23,995 nucleotides of DNA from the IMG/VR virus record IMGVR_UViG_3300048691_000022, positions 1 through 23,995 of that record; one strand, 5' to 3'. A program made the position numbers and the translations under genes. Positions 2,759 through 23,318 of the stretch are shown piece by piece. Below the pieces are notes generated by a model, which saw only the letters and a list, made by a program, of their open reading frames with translations, ran no database searches and was not told where the DNA came from. Within the stretch, counting starts at the first letter, position 1, and the number at the start of each line of letters is the position of its first letter. Origin of the DNA: a virus.

Positions 2759-3487
2759 TTAATTTAAATCAATGCATTTCTGAGTTTCATTTGCCAGGTC
2801 TGTTTTATCGGCCTCAGTTACAAGCACACCATCAGCCACTGTGGCCATGATAAACTCTTTTGCTGTTACCAGTGAGGCTGTCCCTAGTAGGCCCTTGATT
2901 GGGGCAGAGACAGTATTCATCTGGGCAATCTGAGTTGGTGATAATGCCTTTGGTACATTTCTAACAACCATCAAGGCAATGACTCTTTTTCCACAGTCTA
3001 TTTTCTTGATTGCCGTTTGGACGTTGGATTCTTTTTGTCCAGCCTGCGCTTTGATGACTTCCTGTGCTTGGTAATCTTGAAGTTTTTGCGTATCAAGCAT
3101 GATGGATTTGATAAATTTCTTTTCATATCCTGCTAGTTTAACACAATAAACTTGCAGCAAATCTAAATTCTTAATCTTATAGTAGTCATTTTGAGTACAT
3201 GTAAGTGCTAAGAACTTAGCAGAGCAATCAATCTCATCTGAGCATGAAAGCTCATCGGCTTTAAAGTAAGTTGGCCTTGTGTAGTCATCAACTTCTTTGT
3301 CATATTCTGAGTGGATCGAGCTTGGATAAATGCCAAGATCAAAACACTCCTCTCCTGAGACTCTTTCACAGTCATGCTTAAGTGAGAATGCCTCTATTGA
3401 TCCTGACTTAATCTTTGTGTGATTAAGCCAGTTTTCTGCATGAGCTATTTGAGTAAAAAGTAAAATTGTTAAAATTAAATATTTCAT
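2759..3487 (-). CDS. Exported cysteine-rich protein beside the fibre gene
   Basis: A 242-residue protein with a textbook signal peptide (MKYLILTILLFTQIAHA, cleavage after AHA at residue 17). The mature part has eight cysteines, an even number that suits disulfide bonds made outside the cytoplasm, and no further membrane segment. No family is recognised. It follows the 644-residue exported fibre-like protein with a 9-base gap, shares its MKYL start and an almost identical ribosome site (TAAGGGGAT), and so is probably made and exported with it. A chaperone, partner or assembly factor of the fibre is one guess; a periplasmic protein acting in lysogens is another. Confidence 0.7.
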   Translation of the reverse strand: MKYLILTILLFTQIAHAENWLNHTKIKSGSIEAFSLKHDCERVSGEECFDLGIYPSSIHSEYDKEVDDYTRPTYFKADELSCSDEIDCSAKFLALTCTQNDYYKIKNLDLLQVYCVKLAGYEKKFIKSIMLDTQKLQDYQAQEVIKAQAGQKESNVQTAIKKIDCGKRVIALMVVRNVPKALSPTQIAQMNTVSAPIKGLLGTASLVTAKEFIMATVADGVLVTEADKTDLANETQKCIDLN

Positions 3488-3496
3488 AAAATCCCC

Positions 3497-5431
3497 TTAT
3501 GGTAATTCGCCATCACATTGATAAGTAAAATCCCTAGGTCCTACAGCGTTTGCATAGGTAACAAAAGATTGAGAGCTTGATGTCCCAGTTGACAGTGGCA
3601 TACACCAAAATACCGCTGCACTGGCCACACCATCTGAAACGCTACATGTACAATTTAATCTCGTTGTGTGTGAGTTGGTTAGCGGACAAGTGGCAACTCC
3701 ACCACTTAACCCACCCCATGTACACGATGATGCAAATGATCCTTTTTTATTTGATATTACACCAGACCCATTTACAATCCCACTATAGTGGACTGGCTTG
3801 ACAGATGTTGGGACAGTCATCTGATCACCAGTTAAAATCGGACGATTAAAAGCAGATAAAAGCGGTCTGACTGTTATTTTCATATCACGTTGACCAGCTG
3901 AAGATGCTCTGTCACCATAAATTATTAAACTAGTTGCACCCGACTCATAAGAAAAACGTAATGTTTTTTTAGAAACATCGTTAAAAGTAAATGTTCCACA
4001 ATTATTTAAAGTTGAACTAAAATTATCTACACCATTAAAAGCCGTTCTTGCTTTACCTTCTGTAATAATTGTTTGTGAATTATTTGCTGTTTCTACCCAT
4101 TGAACTGTTGAAGTACCAGGCCCGTTATTATACAAAGCACCTTGAATACAAGCTTCATAAACACCAGCATAAGGTGGATTAAATGCAACACCAACTTGTT
4201 CACTTCCAGAACTACAAGTTAAACCTGTTGAAGCATTTGTTCCAGAGCATGGGATTTCTGCACTTGCTGAACCAGTATTTAAAACTAAATCAAGTGTAGC
4301 ATTTTCAAAAGGAAGGTATGAAGTCGTTGCCGTTCCATTTGGATTCGCCCCCCCAATATTTGCATCAATAAACCATGACGCTTGTTCTGATGATACGGCT
4401 GTCTGTGGCTTTGCCTTGGTAAAGTCTGAGCCAGACTTCTGACAAACAATATGATAAGCCTCAGCTGAGATTGCACCATTTAAAAAAGTTTTTGTTGTAA
4501 CTTGAGTTGATGAAGGATCAGTCATCCAAGAATAAATTAAAGTGCCACCAGTGTTGGAATTTACTGTAACCGTACAAGATGGTGCTGTTGTAAAAATACC
4601 TGTATTATATGCACACGTACTAATTGATGTCCCAGAAATTACACAATTCCCATTTATCCAGTCTAAATTCTCTCTTACAACAGTTCCTGTTGATGCAACA
4701 GTTGCAGTAAAAACATCTTCGCATCCAACTGTGCCCTGACACTGGCTTTCAACAATGTTTTGATTTGATCCAATATAAGCTCTATCAAATTGAATTGTAC
4801 CAGCGGCCAGTGATGTAAGTCTTAGTTTTAGATTGCTTGATCCAGTTGTTGGGCACTGAAAACTAATTGTTGGAATTTTTATCCATGGACTAACTCCAAT
4901 TGTTTGCTCGGCTAAGATATTATTTGAAACATCAAGGGCCTGTACTTTAAAAATACCTGCAGTTGCAATGTTAACTTTCTTAAAATCGGCCTGGCATCCA
5001 GCTGAGAAATTTGTTGGCACCGAAACAATCTGCTCAATATACTGACCAGATGCTGTTGCCACAAATTGGCCATATTTTGTATCTGACTCTGATGGTATCG
5101 CATATGATTGTTGTGTAAATGTCCCACCAGATGATGTCCATGGAGATCCTATTCCATCTTCAAAAGACTCATTGGTAAGAATATTAATTCCACTTGATCC
5201 ACCAGATCCAGATCCTGATCCTAGGTTTTTATATAGAGATCCATCATTTGAAAATTCAATTTTACCTGTACTTTCATTTGCTCTAATTTTCTTGTTTGTA
5301 CCAAGAGTGATCTCTTTGTTTGCACTCGATCCTGGTTTCCCGATCTTTAAAGTATCATCTGTGATTGTTGCCCCAAAGACATTCGTAACTAGTAACGAAT
5401 ATACAATGAGAAAGACATTTAAATATTTCAT
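3497..5431 (-). CDS. Exported multidomain fibre-like adhesin/receptor-binding protein
   Basis: This 644-residue protein has a Sec signal peptide (residues 1-20, VFG/A). A short repeat-like shaft segment (about 24-70, with KIEFSNDG) comes next, then a Gly/Ser linker (71-81). Residues 82-222 (NESFEDG...W) form a beta-sandwich resembling carbohydrate-binding modules. A cysteine-containing domain follows (about 225-335), then a TNF/C1q-like jelly-roll (about 352-525, with VETANNSQTI, CGTFTF, KKTLRF and GQRDMKITVRP) of the kind seen at phage fibre tips. The last domain is cysteine-rich (540-644). There are 18 cysteines in all. It lies in the tail-fibre position of the operon. A signal peptide on a virion protein is odd, because tails assemble in the cytoplasm; it may be a surface adhesin or an exported decoy. 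A seven-G tract lies at codons 360-362. The domain calls come from pattern recognition. Confidence 0.75.
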   Translation of the reverse strand: MKYLNVFLIVYSLLVTNVFGATITDDTLKIGKPGSSANKEITLGTNKKIRANESTGKIEFSNDGSLYKNLGSGSGSGGSSGINILTNESFEDGIGSPWTSSGGTFTQQSYAIPSESDTKYGQFVATASGQYIEQIVSVPTNFSAGCQADFKKVNIATAGIFKVQALDVSNNILAEQTIGVSPWIKIPTISFQCPTTGSSNLKLRLTSLAAGTIQFDRAYIGSNQNIVESQCQGTVGCEDVFTATVASTGTVVRENLDWINGNCVISGTSISTCAYNTGIFTTAPSCTVTVNSNTGGTLIYSWMTDPSSTQVTTKTFLNGAISAEAYHIVCQKSGSDFTKAKPQTAVSSEQASWFIDANIGGANPNGTATTSYLPFENATLDLVLNTGSASAEIPCSGTNASTGLTCSSGSEQVGVAFNPPYAGVYEACIQGALYNNGPGTSTVQWVETANNSQTIITEGKARTAFNGVDNFSSTLNNCGTFTFNDVSKKTLRFSYESGATSLIIYGDRASSAGQRDMKITVRPLLSAFNRPILTGDQMTVPTSVKPVHYSGIVNGSGVISNKKGSFASSCTWGGLSGGVATCPLTNSHTTRLNCTCSVSDGVASAAVFWCMPLSTGTSSSQSFVTYANAVGPRDFTYQCDGELP

Positions 5432-5440
5432 CTATCCCCC

Positions 5441-6013
5441 TTAAACTCTGATTTCAAAAATTGAAGTTATTTTTAATTGCCCATCATATGCAGATCCTGC
5501 CAGGTTGTCAGTCACATATTGCAACTTGCTTACTGTGCCTGCAGATATTGCTGTCGAAAGTATTACCCCGACATCATCATCAAAAAGAGATATCTTGCTA
5601 ATTCTCCAGATGTTATCAGCTGTGTCTCTTGTGATGAAAAGAATACCAGACTCTTGCTTATTTGCTGATCCTGTTTTTCTTTCAATATCATAAAGGCAAA
5701 TCTTAGTCTTTACCAATATGCTGTCAAAAGTAAATCCTGCAACATCGGCCTCAACTGCCTGGTTGTTAATTAATGATTGTGTAATTGGTGACTGTCTCCC
5801 ACCTCTTAAAAAGAATTCCAGCATAGATGCCTGGAGTTGAGCTGTACTTGGCTTGCTTAATACGATGCCATTGTACTCTATGAAAGTGGCCATCTCCTCC
5901 TGTACAGAGTTGAGCCAGTCGGCACTTACAACAGTGGCCGGTACACCTAGCGATGGATCACCCTCTGTAAATTTATTATCAAGGGTTGCACCCTCGCTGT
6001 CGATCCTAAACAT
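5441..6013 (-). CDS. Short tail fibre / collar-type adaptor protein
   Basis: The 190-residue product begins with the pattern common to contractile-phage fibre proteins: FTEGDPSLGVPATVVSADWL followed by NSVQEEMATFIE (residues 15-46). The rest is beta-rich without collagen-like repeats. At 190 residues it is far shorter than typical fibres, which suggests an adaptor or a stub fibre carrying only a small tip. It has no signal peptide, unlike the gene that follows, so it should assemble in the cytoplasm. It follows the gp48-like baseplate gene, as fibres do in Mu and P2. AGGAGGT stands 5 bases before the ATG. Confidence 0.75.
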   Translation of the reverse strand: MFRIDSEGATLDNKFTEGDPSLGVPATVVSADWLNSVQEEMATFIEYNGIVLSKPSTAQLQASMLEFFLRGGRQSPITQSLINNQAVEADVAGFTFDSILVKTKICLYDIERKTGSANKQESGILFITRDTADNIWRISKISLFDDDVGVILSTAISAGTVSKLQYVTDNLAGSAYDGQLKITSIFEIRV

Positions 6014-6022
6014 TATGACCTC

Positions 6023-6640
6023 CTAAGAACTCGGAAAAGTAAAAATTGCAACTGCATGAGCTGGTTTGTATTTCTCAATTAAACACTGGAGCGTAGAATT
6101 TTGCACTAATAAAAGTCTCTCACCTGCAGTTGATATCCCTGCTCTAAACCTAATAATGCTGTCAGCTGGTGCTTGTATAATAAAAGCGTATCTCCATGTG
6201 CCGTTTGTTAATCTATCACCAGCACGGCCCTGTCCGGCCCTGAATGGTGGTTGATCTGAAACCTCTATGACATCAACATCGTATCCAAATTGTGATGCCA
6301 GGGTTTGATAAAAAGATTTATTTTGCCCACCTCTTGTGGTGAGTAGTTGTAAAATTCTTTGTCGTCTTTGTTGTAAAGTCAGGACCTCATCTGGAGCACA
6401 CTCATCTGGCAATCCAAAAACTCTTTCCCAGTCTGGAAGTAATTCAAATGTTGTTGCAGGATTTGACTCTTTAATTAGAGTGGCACCTCTGTCCTCAATT
6501 CTTGCATACTCCTCGGCCATTGATGCCAAGAGCTTTGAAAGATTTGATGCCTTTCTACTTTTTGCCTCCCACACCCAACCATCTGGCAGTAAGCTTTTTA
6601 AAAGTTTTGAATATCTGCCAACTATGCCAGTGCTTGCCAT
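6023..6640 (-). CDS. Mu gp48-like baseplate/tail protein (DUF2313 family)
   Basis: A 205-residue protein with features of the YmfQ/DUF2313 family: an N-terminal YSKLLKSLLPDGWVWE segment (LLP.G.aW), a helical region with LLPDWERVFGLPDEC near residues 66-82, and QQRRQRILQLL. It is the last baseplate wedge component before the fibres in Mu-like tails and probably links wedge to fibre. It overlaps the end of the baseplate J gene by 19 bases, with AGGA about 9 bases before the ATG. The family match is strong by order and motif. Confidence 0.85.
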   Translation of the reverse strand: MASTGIVGRYSKLLKSLLPDGWVWEAKSRKASNLSKLLASMAEEYARIEDRGATLIKESNPATTFELLPDWERVFGLPDECAPDEVLTLQQRRQRILQLLTTRGGQNKSFYQTLASQFGYDVDVIEVSDQPPFRAGQGRAGDRLTNGTWRYAFIIQAPADSIIRFRAGISTAGERLLLVQNSTLQCLIEKYKPAHAVAIFTFPSS

Positions 6641-7725
6641 GTCGTATTTCCTAATGTCACAAGCTCACCATCAGCTGGGAGCACATTTGCAGGGGCCAAT
6701 CCATTGATTGTCACAATCTCATGATCCTCAAGTCCAACAGCAATACTGATGGCCTGATTTATTTTTGAGAGCAGTATGCTCCCATCGTTTGTAACTCCAG
6801 GACTCTTATATGATCCGGCCAGAGTTGCATCTCTTTTTACAAGGTCACTTAATTCATTAAGTATGTTTTGTTGTACTTCAATTGTGTTTGGTTTGATTTT
6901 AATATCTAAATCCATCGGTGCTGCCACTGGTGCAAACACTGTCAAGAGTGCTGTCACTGGCTTTCTCTCTTCAATGTATGCCCTAACCTCATTAACCTTT
7001 GGTGCAGGTGGTATGATATCAACCTCATCATCTGTGACAAATGAAACTGCAACTGTACCTGGCCCTGTATAGAGAGGCAAAACCCATGACCTTGTCACTC
7101 CACCAACTTCTTTTGCCCATGTGATATAGTCATTTGCCGATCCACCCAATGGTGGTAATTGCATTCTATTAAGTAGCCTTGCTCTGAGTGAGTCTATTGT
7201 TTCCTGGCCAGATGCAATTGTGATTATTTCTGAAATTGTTGACTCTGAGTTTATGTTTGCTATTGGTGAAACTAAATTTACCTTTCCACCAACATCCATA
7301 TTTGATCCAGTATCTGGAAGGACTGCAACTAGCTTTCCGATGATTGATCCACCGATTGGGATAATGACCTCAGCATCTATTTCATATTGAAATCCAGATG
7401 CATTTTGGTAAAGCTCACCTTCAATGACTACCCCTCCAGGGTTTCCTGTGATTGTAATATTAAACTCAGCAAATGTTGCCTCTCTTAATTGCAGGCCAAA
7501 TATTGATGCCCATCTAATTAATTGCTCATCCTCTGCAGTGTCTGGAATAACTTGCTTTGAAATCCAATCCAGGTATCCCAATTGCAAATGTGATAATCCG
7601 GCCATTGCTCTGGCAATTACACCAAGAAATGATCTCCTGATAATATCGGCAACATTCAAACCACTTCTGAAATCTGATTTAACTCTTTCAATAAGCTGAT
7701 CTAGTGTTGGTCTTTGGAAGGGCAT
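6622..7725 (-). CDS. Baseplate J-like protein (Mu gp47-like)
   Basis: A 367-residue wedge protein of the baseplate J family (T4 gp6 core relatives). It has an N-terminal helical domain (RPTLDQLIERVKSDF), a DTAEDEQLIRWASIFGL segment around residues 60-76 typical of the family, and a central beta domain with LPPLGGSANDYITWAKEV (about 188-205). A C-terminal helical and beta region follows. It would form the baseplate ring around the hub. It overlaps the preceding gp46-like gene by one base (TAATG) and is coupled to the following gene. The length is normal for the family. Confidence 0.9.
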   Translation of the reverse strand: MPFQRPTLDQLIERVKSDFRSGLNVADIIRRSFLGVIARAMAGLSHLQLGYLDWISKQVIPDTAEDEQLIRWASIFGLQLREATFAEFNITITGNPGGVVIEGELYQNASGFQYEIDAEVIIPIGGSIIGKLVAVLPDTGSNMDVGGKVNLVSPIANINSESTISEIITIASGQETIDSLRARLLNRMQLPPLGGSANDYITWAKEVGGVTRSWVLPLYTGPGTVAVSFVTDDEVDIIPPAPKVNEVRAYIEERKPVTALLTVFAPVAAPMDLDIKIKPNTIEVQQNILNELSDLVKRDATLAGSYKSPGVTNDGSILLSKINQAISIAVGLEDHEIVTINGLAPANVLPADGELVTLGNTTWQALA

Positions 7726-16890: not shown

Positions 16891-18960
16891 TTAAAGACCT
16901 GGGTTTTTAAAGATACCACGGTGGTCAATTACCTTAGCACCAACATCGTAAGAGCACTTAAGCTGTAGGCCATCAGTGTTGAATCCCTCTTTAGTTGTAA
17001 GAGTTGGACCGTCTTGACCGATAAGGTTTGCAAGTTCAAAGATATCAACTTGAGCGATTGCTGCAAGTAAGTACCATGCAGTTGAGCTGGCAGCATCTAA
17101 TCTTGGCTCAGCAATTGGCATTAACTTTCCAGAGAAAGGGTTTACCTGGTTGTTTTGGTTAGCTTGGATAACCGAAACAAATTGCTCTGCAATTGTCTCA
17201 AGTGCTGTTGGCACTAAAAGAGTTTTTGGTACAAGATTTAAAAGAGCATCATTTAGGCCCTTTTGTAGTCTCATTTTTGAGCGTCCCTCAGAGATTGATG
17301 CAATTGCAATTGCAGCTGCAGTCCCAAGGTTTCCATGAGTAGCATGGAATAATGGCACACCATCGGCCATGTTTGGATTGCTTGTGATGATTTTGTAAAT
17401 CAACTCAGACTCAAGATCTCTTGATGAGCGTCCAAACATTTCTGGAAGTCTTGAGAAAGCATCCATGTCATCGTTAACAAGAGTTTGTCTTGTAATCCCG
17501 ATGATCTTACCATAAGTTTCAACCTTATATTTTTCAGCTGCCTCACCGATTTTTCCAGTTTTGTACTCGCCATTTTCTAAAACTTTTTCAAGCTTAGGAG
17601 CATCACCTAATTGAGTACGGCTGATTTCTTTGAAGTCAGCAACCTGCACTCTTCTTGTGAATGGTGAGAATGTTTGAGGAGCTTCCTCGTATGCAGATCT
17701 AAGAGATCTATTTGCCACGTTGGCAAGAATAAGTGCAAAGTCAGATGTGCTGTGAAGTGCTCTCTCTGCAAGCTCATTTGGTGTTAGGCCACGGACATTT
17801 TGCCCTGCAGCTGTTAGGATCTCCTCAGCAAGTCTGATTAGAGACATACCACGGTATGATCTAGCATCCTCATGCAATGTAACTTTATCACTGTGAGCAC
17901 GATGCATTAATGCATTTGTTGCCATCTCAATTCTCATTTTACTTTGATCCACGTCCCTAACCTCCACATTATGGTTTTTTGTTTTTGTTTCTTTGTTTTT
18001 TTCTGAAAGATTTTCTATGATCATCTCACGGGCTTTATCAACAGTGATGTCCTCAGTAATCATTTTCTCCGCAAAGTCATCACCAAGACCTGCAGTTTTA
18101 ACAGCTGATCTGATTTCAATTCCACGTTGTTTTTCTAATTCCTTTTCATTCACTGTGACCTCTTTGTTTTCGACAGCTGCAGGTGCTGTCTTTGTTTCAG
18201 ACTGAATTGATCTTTCCTCTTTAGTTTCTGTCAGCTCTGAATTTTGTTCAACAGATTTATTCAAATCTGTTTGAGTTTCTTCTTTTACTTCTGTTTGAGG
18301 ATCTGTTTCAACATTTGTTTCTGTTGCCACAACTTCTGTTGTTTCTGTTTCAACTGGTACATCAATAGCATCTGCGACATCGGCCTCAGTCTCAACCTCT
18401 TCTGATGACCTAAGAGTGATTGATGACTCGTATCTTTCTTGTCCGGCCTCCATTGATCTAACTTGTGCATCCTTGTCGAATGGAATATTTACAAAGGAAA
18501 TCTCCATAGGCTCCCAGTCAATTGCTCTATAAGTTGGGATCTCATCACCTTTTTTTGTTATTTCTTCATATGAGTGGACAACATATCCAACAGAGATGTT
18601 TCTAATAACACCCTCTTGGATGTCTCTTACTATTCCTGCAACCTCATCTCTTGATGATAGTCTCAGTGTTGCACGTCCCTCTTTCCCTTTAATCCATGCC
18701 TTTTCAACAACACCAAGATTTGATCCAAGATCATATGATCTGTGACTATTTAAAACTGGTGCCCCTTGATTTAATCTATCAAGCTTTACATGGTCTTTTT
18801 TCATTGAAAGCTCTTCATAGAAAGCTCCAGTCCATGTGTATCTTTTTCCTTTTGCTCCCATTGACCACACAACCTCAACGGTCCTGTCCTCAACATTAAA
18901 AGTGTTTCTTTGGATAAGGGCCGACATCTGGCCTTTAGGTGTTTGAATTTTTCTACTCAT
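16891..18960 (-). CDS. Prohead protease-scaffold-major capsid fusion protein
   Basis: A 689-residue fusion. Residues 1-175 are an HK97-type (U35) prohead protease with LNSH (H73), IRNISVGY (S123) and the WEPMEISFVNIPFDKDAQVR segment (as WEPMEISFVNIP and FDKDAQVR) as active-site and family features. Residues about 185-330 are an acidic Glu/Thr/Val-rich, low-complexity stretch and coiled coil, suited to act as internal scaffold (delta domain). Residues about 335-689 are the HK97-fold major capsid region. Protease-capsid fusions of this order are a known phage family. The protease presumably cuts itself and the scaffold away after prohead assembly; no cleavage site can be fixed by eye. It overlaps the portal stop by 8 bases, with AAGGGG upstream. 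Confidence 0.9.
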   Translation of the reverse strand: MSRKIQTPKGQMSALIQRNTFNVEDRTVEVVWSMGAKGKRYTWTGAFYEELSMKKDHVKLDRLNQGAPVLNSHRSYDLGSNLGVVEKAWIKGKEGRATLRLSSRDEVAGIVRDIQEGVIRNISVGYVVHSYEEITKKGDEIPTYRAIDWEPMEISFVNIPFDKDAQVRSMEAGQERYESSITLRSSEEVETEADVADAIDVPVETETTEVVATETNVETDPQTEVKEETQTDLNKSVEQNSELTETKEERSIQSETKTAPAAVENKEVTVNEKELEKQRGIEIRSAVKTAGLGDDFAEKMITEDITVDKAREMIIENLSEKNKETKTKNHNVEVRDVDQSKMRIEMATNALMHRAHSDKVTLHEDARSYRGMSLIRLAEEILTAAGQNVRGLTPNELAERALHSTSDFALILANVANRSLRSAYEEAPQTFSPFTRRVQVADFKEISRTQLGDAPKLEKVLENGEYKTGKIGEAAEKYKVETYGKIIGITRQTLVNDDMDAFSRLPEMFGRSSRDLESELIYKIITSNPNMADGVPLFHATHGNLGTAAAIAIASISEGRSKMRLQKGLNDALLNLVPKTLLVPTALETIAEQFVSVIQANQNNQVNPFSGKLMPIAEPRLDAASSTAWYLLAAIAQVDIFELANLIGQDGPTLTTKEGFNTDGLQLKCSYDVGAKVIDHRGIFKNPGL

Positions 18961-20616: not shown

Positions 20617-22581
20617 TTACCAATACCCATCATCGGCCTTAGGTTTCTTTGGCCGTTTGTTTTTTGCGTTGTTGGTTTCATTTTCCGGCCTCTTGAGATT
20701 TTTTACAACCATTATATTAGACTCTGCCTTTTTCCACTCCTCCTCTTTCCATCTATCTATCCCGATCATTGCAGCCGCTGCTCTGTTGTAAACATATAAA
20801 TCCAGAGTCTCGTTTCTGTCTCTCACCTTGTGCCACTCAATAACTGTGTGACCTTTTTTATTTTTCTTAAGCCTCCTCTCCTCAGCAACTAGCTGTGAGA
20901 AATATTCCAGATCATAATCTGGAAAGTGGATGTACCCTTTTGGATATGGTTGCGTTATGTCATCTGGTGCAGTTTTTTGCAGATCACCATAAAGCTCACC
21001 CTTGATCATGTTGATCCCAACTCTCCAAAGTTTTATCCCACGTCTTTTTGTTTTTCCTTTCTCACTAACATCCAAAGCCTTTGGCAGCGCATACATCTGA
21101 GTAAGGGCCTCATCACCTTTAATAGGCAAAACTCTCTTGGCATCAAAGCGTCTACAAAAATTATAAACTCTCTGTGTTTCATAACCAGAGTCGATGACGG
21201 CCTTTGTGATTGGCATACTGAAACCATCAACGTGCTCAAAGGTTGTGCCAAGATACTCCTCCAATTCATTCCAGGTATCATCCTCAGTAACATTGCCAAC
21301 AATGATTTTTCTTTCAACAGACCATCTCCTCCTGTCTCTGCCCCATGCATGCACCTCGGCCTCAAGTCGATCCTCTTGCACATCCACTGCACAGGTAAGA
21401 AAGATTGCACCCCTCTGCACAGTCCCGACTGGATACTGCTCACGTCTTGCAAATAGATTTTTTTCAATTGGTCTTTCACCGACATCCTCAAAAACCTCAC
21501 CAAGTACGGTGTTAACAAATGAAATCATTTTTTCTGGATCTTTAGAGTTTTTGGCATTCACATAGTCCTGGCAAATTTCTTTCCAAGACATCCACCCTAG
21601 TGGTGAGTACATTGATGAAAGCATAAATCCAGCAACTTCACTTTTAGGATTGTGCTTGATCCACTCGGCCCCATTATCACCAGAAAACATCCACGGCTTA
21701 TTGTGCTCCAGGATCTCCTCTCCACATTTTTTACAAAAGACAACTGCCCTGGTAACAATCTCACCACCAACAGCATCGGCCTCAGTCTCATAATGAAGGT
21801 GATCAAAAACAGTGAGAGGTCTTTCCCAATCCTCATGGCCTAATATTTGTTTTTCTTTGCAGTGAGGACATGGCACATAATACCATCTCTGATCAGACAG
21901 CATAAACTCTTTGTGAATTTTAGATGATCTTTTAAAAGTTGGTGTGCTCACATAGTATGCTTTACGTCTTGAGTAAGTTCTTTGTCTGGCCTCAACCAGC
22001 TTTACAGGATCTCCCTCACCCTCAACATCATCTGGCCATCTGTCGATCTCATCACCAAAAACATTCTTTGCTGGTATAGATGAAAGAGATGAGCTGGAGT
22101 TAGCACCTGATATGATCAAGGCTCCATTCTCAAAATCTTTTAAAAGTACAGTGGCCTTTGCATCTCGATTGTTTCCAGTTGATAGTTTTGTCCTGATCCT
22201 GGGAGTTGCTTGAAACATAGGATCTAATCTGATCTTTGAATTTTTCTTTGCATCTGGAAGTGTAGGCCAAACAATCATAGTCATCCCTGGATCATGATCA
22301 ACTATGTATCCAATCCAGTTAAGACCTGCAGCTGTGGCACCAACCTGGGCACCCTTTTTAAATATTACCTTTTTAACTAATGATTGGTTTGAGATCTCCC
22401 ACATGATCTCTCTTAGAAATGGAGTCCTGTCTGATCTATATGGTCCTGGCTCTGCAGAGTCTTTTGCTGAAAGTATTCTGTACTTATCGGCCCACTCCCA
22501 AACTGATAATCTTTCCTTTGGCTTTAAAGCATTTAGCAATGCCCTTTCAAAAACTTGATACGCATCTGCTAAGGCACTCAT
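20617..22581 (-). CDS. terL: Terminase large subunit, GpA family
   Basis: A 654-residue protein of the lambda GpA family. The ATPase has a variant Walker A (KKGAQVGAT, about 75-83) and Walker B/catalytic motif (VFGDEIDR, 174-181). A zinc-ribbon-like CPHC...CKKC set follows (C238, C241, C283, C286). The nuclease centre shows a conserved aspartate in TCAVDVQEDRLE (D400, aligned with lambda D401), VIDSGYE (D463) and RDRNETLDL (D594). It cuts concatemeric DNA and drives packaging into the prohead, probably at cos sites given its family. It starts inside the methyltransferase stop (ATGA). The length is near lambda's 641, and all key residues are present. Confidence 0.95.
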   Translation of the reverse strand: MSALADAYQVFERALLNALKPKERLSVWEWADKYRILSAKDSAEPGPYRSDRTPFLREIMWEISNQSLVKKVIFKKGAQVGATAAGLNWIGYIVDHDPGMTMIVWPTLPDAKKNSKIRLDPMFQATPRIRTKLSTGNNRDAKATVLLKDFENGALIISGANSSSSLSSIPAKNVFGDEIDRWPDDVEGEGDPVKLVEARQRTYSRRKAYYVSTPTFKRSSKIHKEFMLSDQRWYYVPCPHCKEKQILGHEDWERPLTVFDHLHYETEADAVGGEIVTRAVVFCKKCGEEILEHNKPWMFSGDNGAEWIKHNPKSEVAGFMLSSMYSPLGWMSWKEICQDYVNAKNSKDPEKMISFVNTVLGEVFEDVGERPIEKNLFARREQYPVGTVQRGAIFLTCAVDVQEDRLEAEVHAWGRDRRRWSVERKIIVGNVTEDDTWNELEEYLGTTFEHVDGFSMPITKAVIDSGYETQRVYNFCRRFDAKRVLPIKGDEALTQMYALPKALDVSEKGKTKRRGIKLWRVGINMIKGELYGDLQKTAPDDITQPYPKGYIHFPDYDLEYFSQLVAEERRLKKNKKGHTVIEWHKVRDRNETLDLYVYNRAAAAMIGIDRWKEEEWKKAESNIMVVKNLKRPENETNNAKNKRPKKPKADDGYW

Positions 22582-22586
22582 GGGTT
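22578..22586. repeat. Direct repeat at the methyltransferase/large terminase junction
   Basis: TCATGGGTT (AACCCATGA on the coding strand) includes the stop/start overlap and is identical to the copy at the other end of the methyltransferase gene. Here it encodes Asn-Pro-stop and the ATG of the terminase. Confidence 0.75.
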
Positions 22587-23318
22587 AATCCTCTCTTTTG
22601 CAATCTCAAAATATTTATCATCCATCTCTATACCTATAAAATTTCTATTTAGATTTTTACAGGCAACACCAGTTGATCCTGATCCCATTGTGAAATCTAA
22701 AACCGTTTCATTTTCTAATGTGTATATCTTAACCAAGTACTCTAAAAGTGCCACTGGTTTCTGCGTTGGGTGCAATCCTTTTTCAGAATTAAATCTTTGA
22801 ATAGATCTAGGAGATCTTAATCCAGTATTTTCTGTTAAGTAACCAGACATATCTGATCCAGGTCGATGAACGGATGACCTGTCTGATTTTCCTGTTTTTT
22901 GCCTGTACGGCTCTCCCTTTGTTTTCTGAGGTATATATCTAAGATTTCCTTTTTTGGAGTATGTACACGCCTTTAAACCAAAAACAGAAATTATCTCATG
23001 CACTCTGAATGGTTGTAAATTTACTGAAACAAAATTAGATCCATTTGGTTTTTCCCATATCCAATCATACTTAAACATTTTTAAATTACTCATCCTTAGC
23101 TGACTAGAAAATGGTTCACTTCCAAATAAAACAATTGCCCCTGTGTCCTTTGTAATTCTCTTTAGCTCATTCCACATTGGCTCAAACTGAATAACCACAT
23201 CCCACCTGCATGCAGTTGTCCCATACGGTGGATCAGTTAAGACCATGTCAATTGATTTATCAGGAATAGTTTTTAGAATTTCAAGGCAGTCACCTTTTAA
23301 TAGATTTAAACTGATCAT
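22578..23318 (-). CDS. DNA adenine-N6/cytosine-N4 methyltransferase (DPPY type)
   Basis: A 246-residue site-specific DNA methyltransferase with motif IV TDPPYG (DPPY at 29-32) near the N-terminus and the SAM-binding motif I FTMGSGSTG (209-217) near the C-terminus. This order belongs to the beta group (HinfI/CcrM-like). HPTQKPVALLEYL precedes motif I, as is usual. DPPY most often means N6-adenine methylation; the target sequence cannot be read from the protein. There is no restriction endonuclease beside it, so it is an orphan enzyme. It is wedged between the terminase genes and overlaps both by exactly four bases. Both junctions carry the same nine bases. It probably modifies the DNA being packaged. 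Confidence 0.9.
   Translation of the reverse strand: MISLNLLKGDCLEILKTIPDKSIDMVLTDPPYGTTACRWDVVIQFEPMWNELKRITKDTGAIVLFGSEPFSSQLRMSNLKMFKYDWIWEKPNGSNFVSVNLQPFRVHEIISVFGLKACTYSKKGNLRYIPQKTKGEPYRQKTGKSDRSSVHRPGSDMSGYLTENTGLRSPRSIQRFNSEKGLHPTQKPVALLEYLVKIYTLENETVLDFTMGSGSTGVACKNLNRNFIGIEMDDKYFEIAKERINP

Follow-up and report, generated by a model that had tools for sequence, protein, structure and literature searches.

We identified in the tail operon of a virus fragment a fibre gene whose product is, judging from its sequence and that of its relatives, almost certainly exported by the Sec pathway and is probably the receptor-binding half of a split tail fibre, ending on virions after docking to an anchor encoded by a separate gene. 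The window, as we call the whole stretch analysed, is a 23,995-base fragment from IMG/VR whose minus strand encodes a late region of Mu-like type, with tail sheath, tape measure, gp45-48 and baseplate J. The fibre gene (3497-5431, minus strand; 644 aa, cysteine-rich) occupies the fibre slot of this operon, after gp46, baseplate J (gp47; 6622-7725, minus strand; PF04865), a Mu gp48-like baseplate protein (6023-6640, minus strand; PF10076, phrog_203) and the anchor gene (5441-6013, minus strand; 190 aa, no signal peptide). The sequence-only reading had likewise placed it in the normal position of a tail-fibre gene, and the equivalent slot is found in four other contigs (G011, G003, G024 and G036), all with anchors homologous to the one in the window. 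Elsewhere in the window, a 689-aa gene (16891-18960) resembles a fusion of prohead protease and major capsid protein, and a very long head gene (gpT-like, ~696 aa) also occurs in Bordetella phage PBb002, whose sheath is the closest relative. Directly before the terminase large subunit lies a DNA methyltransferase-like gene of 246 aa with a DPPYG motif (22578-23318).

The open reading frame of the fibre starts with an ATG at 5431, 9 bases from the anchor gene, and is preceded by a strong Shine-Dalgarno sequence (AAGGGGG, 5436-5442, minus strand, in the context AAGGGGG-ATAG-ATG). A shorter start is unlikely, because the first 300 residues contain no other in-frame ATG. The N-terminus reads MKYLNVFLIVYSLLVTNVFG|ATITDD, and residues 1-20 (5372-5431, minus strand) have the n-h-c layout of a Sec signal peptide under home-made rules: a lysine in the n-region, a hydrophobic h-region (Kyte-Doolittle mean of 2.78 for the best 9-mer) and small residues before a predicted cleavage site near residue 20/21, with (A) alternatively before the cut. 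AlphaFold2 (AF2) predicted a helix at residues 2-16, a result compatible both with a signal peptide and with a buried shaft segment. The mature protein would begin with a short shaft (residues 21-60; 5252-5371, minus strand), the proposed docking segment. After a GSGSGSGG linker comes a beta-sandwich like those of carbohydrate-binding modules (CBM; residues 85-225; 4757-5179, minus strand), modelled by AF2 and matched by VIA-align to the CBM of arabinanase EndoMA1 (Z 13.9), a porphyran CBM (Z 13.6) and the CBA120 tailspike TSP4 (Z 12.3); Foldseek matches of this region also include CBM and phage tailspike structures. A first C1q/TNF-like jelly-roll with conserved cysteines follows (residues 229-348; 4388-4747, minus strand; C1q-like profile E 9e-35), and Foldseek ranks the C1q globular head 5hzf first for the full model (E 2e-5), BAFF/APRIL coming further down; the VIA-align list was filled by CBM matches, so the C1q domain does not show there. 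A second C1q-like jelly-roll at the C-terminus (residues 548-636; 3524-3790, minus strand) is predicted from a weak profile match and from beta strands with block-mean pLDDT mostly of 66-85. Confidence in the full-length model was low (mean pLDDT 59), and it rose to a mean pLDDT of 83 when residues 85-345 were modelled alone with a deeper alignment, in which MAFFT had put CBM-only rows onto the C1q part and so added noise. The protein has 18 cysteines, none of them in the signal peptide. Thus, the signal peptide, short shaft, CBM-like sandwich, jelly-roll and cysteine count described by the sequence-only reading were all recovered, and the CBM and C1q-like folds are those of an adhesive or carbohydrate-binding tip. 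Searches of Pfam, PHROG and PDB sequences returned nothing significant for the fibre, tblastn against the cultured phages of INPHARED returned no relative, and no anchor profile of Pfam or PHROG matched it, consistent with a polypeptide devoid of a tail-attachment domain of its own. A separate anchor gene does not exclude a function as receptor-binding protein, as some receptor-binding proteins lack an anchor of their own.

Relatives of the fibre are carried by at least 60 other phage contigs. A first scan with a DNA pattern for the C1q motif E-N-x-D-[WF]-I-x-G-[ND]-C, which carries no information on the N-terminus, returned 43 viral contig stretches. Once spurious and near-identical matches had been discarded and the window and two matches from genome contigs added, the set comprised 37 distinct fibre genes, on podo-, sipho- and myophage-like contigs. 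All 37 start with a signal-peptide-like sequence under the home-made rules, GTG and TTG starts included, compared to 4 of 135 upstream genes of the same operons (at least 100 aa), two of which are exported fibres themselves (G021 and G030). Lysine or arginine is present at residues 2-5 in 36 of the signal peptides and a plausible cleavage site in every one, the consensus of the site not being independent of a picker that favours alanine. A second scan, with the pattern E-T-G-N-x-N...F-E near the start of the CBM, added 26 new contigs (a few near-duplicates among them), again all with a signal peptide, and neither set contained a member with a visible N-terminus and no signal peptide. Such counts (37/37 and 26/26) rule out a chance hydrophobic start. 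Short motifs also recur just after the cleavage site in L139, L140, L154, L162, L163 and other contigs (LPPTTxKGQ, APYGIKGQ and QGDAPxxxxGQ), and these are candidate docking peptides. In two contigs (L096, 3234-7126; L111, 229-3271) a YPP-type anchor gene is followed by two exported fibres in a row, encoded by consecutive signal-peptide genes of 895 and 601 aa, respectively, and then of 401 and 402 aa.

The cysteine content of the family also sets it apart from its neighbours. Mature fibres contain 2.45 cysteines per 100 residues versus 0.35 in the upstream genes, a 7-fold difference (p = 3e-21), and the number of cysteines is even in 32 of the 37 (binomial p = 7e-6), the scan pattern requiring one cysteine but being neutral on total and parity. 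This combination is the mark of an oxidising compartment and would be expected only there. Among ~85,000 prokaryote genomes (GTDB) the C1q-like domain gave only 2 true matches. At least one of the two sits on a contig with phage tail genes; the clearer match adjoins Baseplate_J in a metagenome-assembled genome (MAG), the only case among 192 in the surveyed phylum. A host gene or contamination was ruled out by the presence of the relatives on IMG/VR contigs and their near absence from GTDB genomes.

The gene preceding the fibre provides the link to the virion. In sampled contigs with family matches, an anchor truncated past its N-terminal domain is encoded by the gene before the fibre and, once, by the gene before that. 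In Mu-like contigs the product of the upstream gene hardly extends beyond the N-terminal domain of a short tail fibre (phrog_2617, positions 1-86 of 659), podophage-like contigs have an N-terminal tail-fibre domain in its place (phrog_5510, positions 1-126 of 789), and G032 carries a different anchor (phrog_7389, positions 12-68 of 732). The anchor in the window follows the same plan, its phrog_2617 match being confined to positions 1-85 of 659 and its phrog_1858 match to the N-terminal part of 1018; we propose that it comprises the baseplate-binding N-terminal domain of the short-tail-fibre family and a small C-terminal domain that would dock the exported fibre. Several of the genes at this position lack a family match, and there the anchor role is assigned from position. 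Coupling of the fibre gene to such a truncated anchor was seen in at least three types of tail, and in 33 of the 37 cases the two genes are separated by -4 to +9 bases; ribosome-binding sites are used by the start picker, so their presence is not independent evidence. The anchor gene alone holds no receptor-binding part.

Further, the last 90 residues of the anchor co-vary with residues 1-40 of the mature fibre (rho 0.33, reached in 0 of 500 permutations), the peak of the signal, and the correlation persists among pairs with unrelated anchors (rho 0.27). Matching pairs cross tail types, as illustrated by G031, which has an anchor unlike that of the Mu type and pairs with G024 and G036, both Mu-like. 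The anchor C-terminus hardly tracks the intervening signal peptide (0.10) and shows no covariation with the C1q domain (0.06) or the fibre C-terminus (0.01). Plain DNA linkage would predict similar signal peptides as well, and their near lack of covariation leads us to read the signal as a putative docking interface; linkage may nonetheless contribute in part, the brevity and simple composition of the signal peptide making it a weak control. No contig contained a second gene with the tip domain or a cytoplasmic twin of the tip, many of the contigs being partial.

Downstream of the fibre, in the slot of the Mu-like fibre chaperone, the window encodes a second exported, cysteine-rich protein (2759-3487, minus strand; 242 aa; signal peptide MKYLILTILLFTQIAHA|EN). 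Its family is also present in G011, G032, G037 and G023 and has six invariant cysteines, and from its position one might guess at a role as a periplasmic chaperone. Single-sequence scans of viral contigs with this protein and with gp48 recovered no relatives. In seven other relatives the gene after the fibre belongs to family A5, which has no signal peptide; two of its members match 'tail fiber assembly' weakly, and this likely fibre-assembly gene is carried by some siphophage relatives. Lysis-type genes lie directly after the second exported gene (2482-2748, 2149-2379 and 1130-1423). The last of these encodes a 97-aa lipoprotein-like product with a MRYVLISFIFIMGC lipobox, possibly an outer-membrane spanin, and similar small lipoproteins come after the fibres of G007 and G036.

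These features can be accommodated in a model of assembly in two compartments. The virion-bound anchor (5441-6013) would stay in the cytoplasm and be built into the tail, whereas the fibre (3497-5431) would be exported by Sec and its signal peptide removed. The exported chains, with their CBM and C1q-like domains, would then fold into a trimer and acquire disulfide bonds in the periplasm, perhaps with the help of the second exported protein (2759-3487). At or after lysis, the N-terminal segment of the mature fibre would dock on the C-terminal domain of the anchor and complete the virion. The lack of a signal peptide in family A5 is a counterpoint to the model, because a cytoplasmic assembly protein does not suit a fibre that folds in the periplasm. 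Among the options offered by the sequence-only reading, addition of the fibre to virions outside the cytoplasm best matches the anchor coupling, the covariation and the lack of a tip twin in the contigs, many of them partial.

The main rival, also raised by that reading as a decoy or superinfection-exclusion factor, is that the exported fibre is presented on the surface of the infected cell or released into its surroundings without ever entering virions, so as to block superinfection or re-adsorption of progeny to debris or to act as an adhesin of the lysogen. We consider it unlikely, but it would explain the signal peptide of every relative and the adhesive nature of the CBM and C1q-like folds, and it has an analogy in the surface fibres of Bdellovibrio (PMC10769870). 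It does not account, however, for the covariation of the mature N-terminus with a virion anchor. A copy that blocks receptors should, moreover, be matched by a virion protein that shares its tip; none was found in the contigs, many of them partial, and the anchor gene alone cannot supply the receptor-binding part. Lysogenic conversion is also improbable for the Bdellovibrio phage phi1422 described below, which is described as lytic (PMC3391216).

Other roles are less probable still. The carbohydrate-binding fold and the lysis-type genes that follow would suit a role of the fibre in the periplasm or during egress, such as aiding lysis or freeing progeny from debris through attachment to glycans of the envelope, the anchor being merely an operon neighbour. 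We regard this as improbable, as no catalytic domain was recognised, the tips vary in the manner of receptor-binding domains, and the anchor is linked to the fibre in several tail types and co-varies with it. Hydrophobic N-terminal stretches exist in some phage fibres, and the one described here could be retained as a buried shaft or membrane-like segment fixed in the anchor trimer, with the usual assembly in the cytoplasm. The predicted helix at residues 2-16 fits this explanation as well as a signal peptide, and a likely fibre-assembly gene without a signal peptide in some siphophage relatives favours it. It is, however, very improbable given the tripartite n-h-c layout, with lysine or arginine at residues 2-5 in all but one of the 37 and a plausible cleavage site in all, and given a cysteine density and parity expected only in an oxidising compartment. 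Furthermore, it is the part after this segment, and hardly the segment itself, that co-varies with the anchor.

Comparison with known systems helps delimit what is particular to the split fibre. In SfMu and other Mu-like phages, as in the window, the fibre (gpS, then chaperone gpU) is encoded after baseplate J and gp48, begins with an anchor of the same kind and is followed by a chaperone-type slot. The SfMu fibre is, however, one cytoplasmic chain of 488 aa with 7 cysteines and no signal peptide, whereas the window divides it into an anchor and an exported, cysteine-rich part. Filamentous phages provide a precedent for virion proteins made with Sec signal peptides, pIII and pVIII, which are placed in the membrane or periplasm, as proposed here for the fibre. 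Filamentous virions are put together in the membrane as they are secreted and do not require lysis, in contrast to the cytoplasmic assembly of tailed virions. The mosaic adhesive trimer (MAT) proteins of Bdellovibrio bacteriovorus are also fibre-like and have a signal peptide, and some carry TNF/C1q-type tips (PMC10769870). After the signal peptide they have a conserved domain of ~130 aa, reported to have no PDB matches (PMC10769870). The window fibre has only ~62 residues between signal peptide and CBM, leaving no room for such a domain, and its CBM has clear PDB matches, which sets it apart from the MAT domain as described (PMC10769870). MAT genes are, in addition, chromosomal genes of the predator, whereas the fibre gene is phage-borne, lies in the tail operon of a virus contig coupled to a virion anchor, and has a domain nearly absent from genome contigs. 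Membership of the MAT group is therefore not supported. Neither is the earlier suggestion that host MAT adhesins arise from genes of this kind, given the two true matches in the genomes and the missing space for the MAT domain.

The layout of the window recurs in a cultured phage of Bdellovibrio, phi1422 (NC_019525). Its tail fibre gp67, without a signal peptide, is followed directly by gp68, a protein of 614 aa with the signal peptide MKFMIAFIIALFSVTMATA, and a second small exported protein (gp75) is also present, as in the window. The tip sequences are mostly different, and gp67, gp68 and gp75 are annotated only as hypothetical. A domain is shared between gp68 and the G008 fibre (20.6 bits; 9.1 for the best of 200 shuffled queries). 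The C1q and CBM profiles gave nothing above shuffled controls against the phi1422 proteins, so the link of the window family to gp68 rests on the layout and the pairwise domain match. The product of gp75 (L063, 44298-44810; 170 aa, signal peptide) resembles a single C1q-like domain. The sections of the phi1422 description available to us do not remark on export of the fibre (PMC3391216). Not all Bdellovibrio phages share the trait, as the late genes of phi1402 contain no large fibre with a signal peptide.

Textbooks describe the assembly of tailed phages as entirely cytoplasmic. Our results suggest late attachment, by the phages described here, of a tail part made outside the cytoplasm. By a narrow balance of probability, we envision that tailed phages of a widespread group, with Bdellovibrio phages among them, would make head, tail and anchor in the cytoplasm and a disulfide-bonded fibre in the periplasm, and join them only at or after lysis. 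The PMC literature, which misses most subscription journals, yielded no description of a tailed phage with Sec-exported fibres; if true, two-compartment assembly of the virion would be a maturation route unreported for tailed phages in that literature. In myo-, sipho- and podophage-like genomes alike, the receptor-binding part of the fibre carries a conserved signal peptide. This leaves two options, namely synthesis and oxidation of part of the virion in the periplasm with late addition, or export of fibre look-alikes to the host surface, a question that phi1422, as a cultured phage, makes directly testable. Both readings alter how we think about host range, superinfection and disulfide-stable tips.
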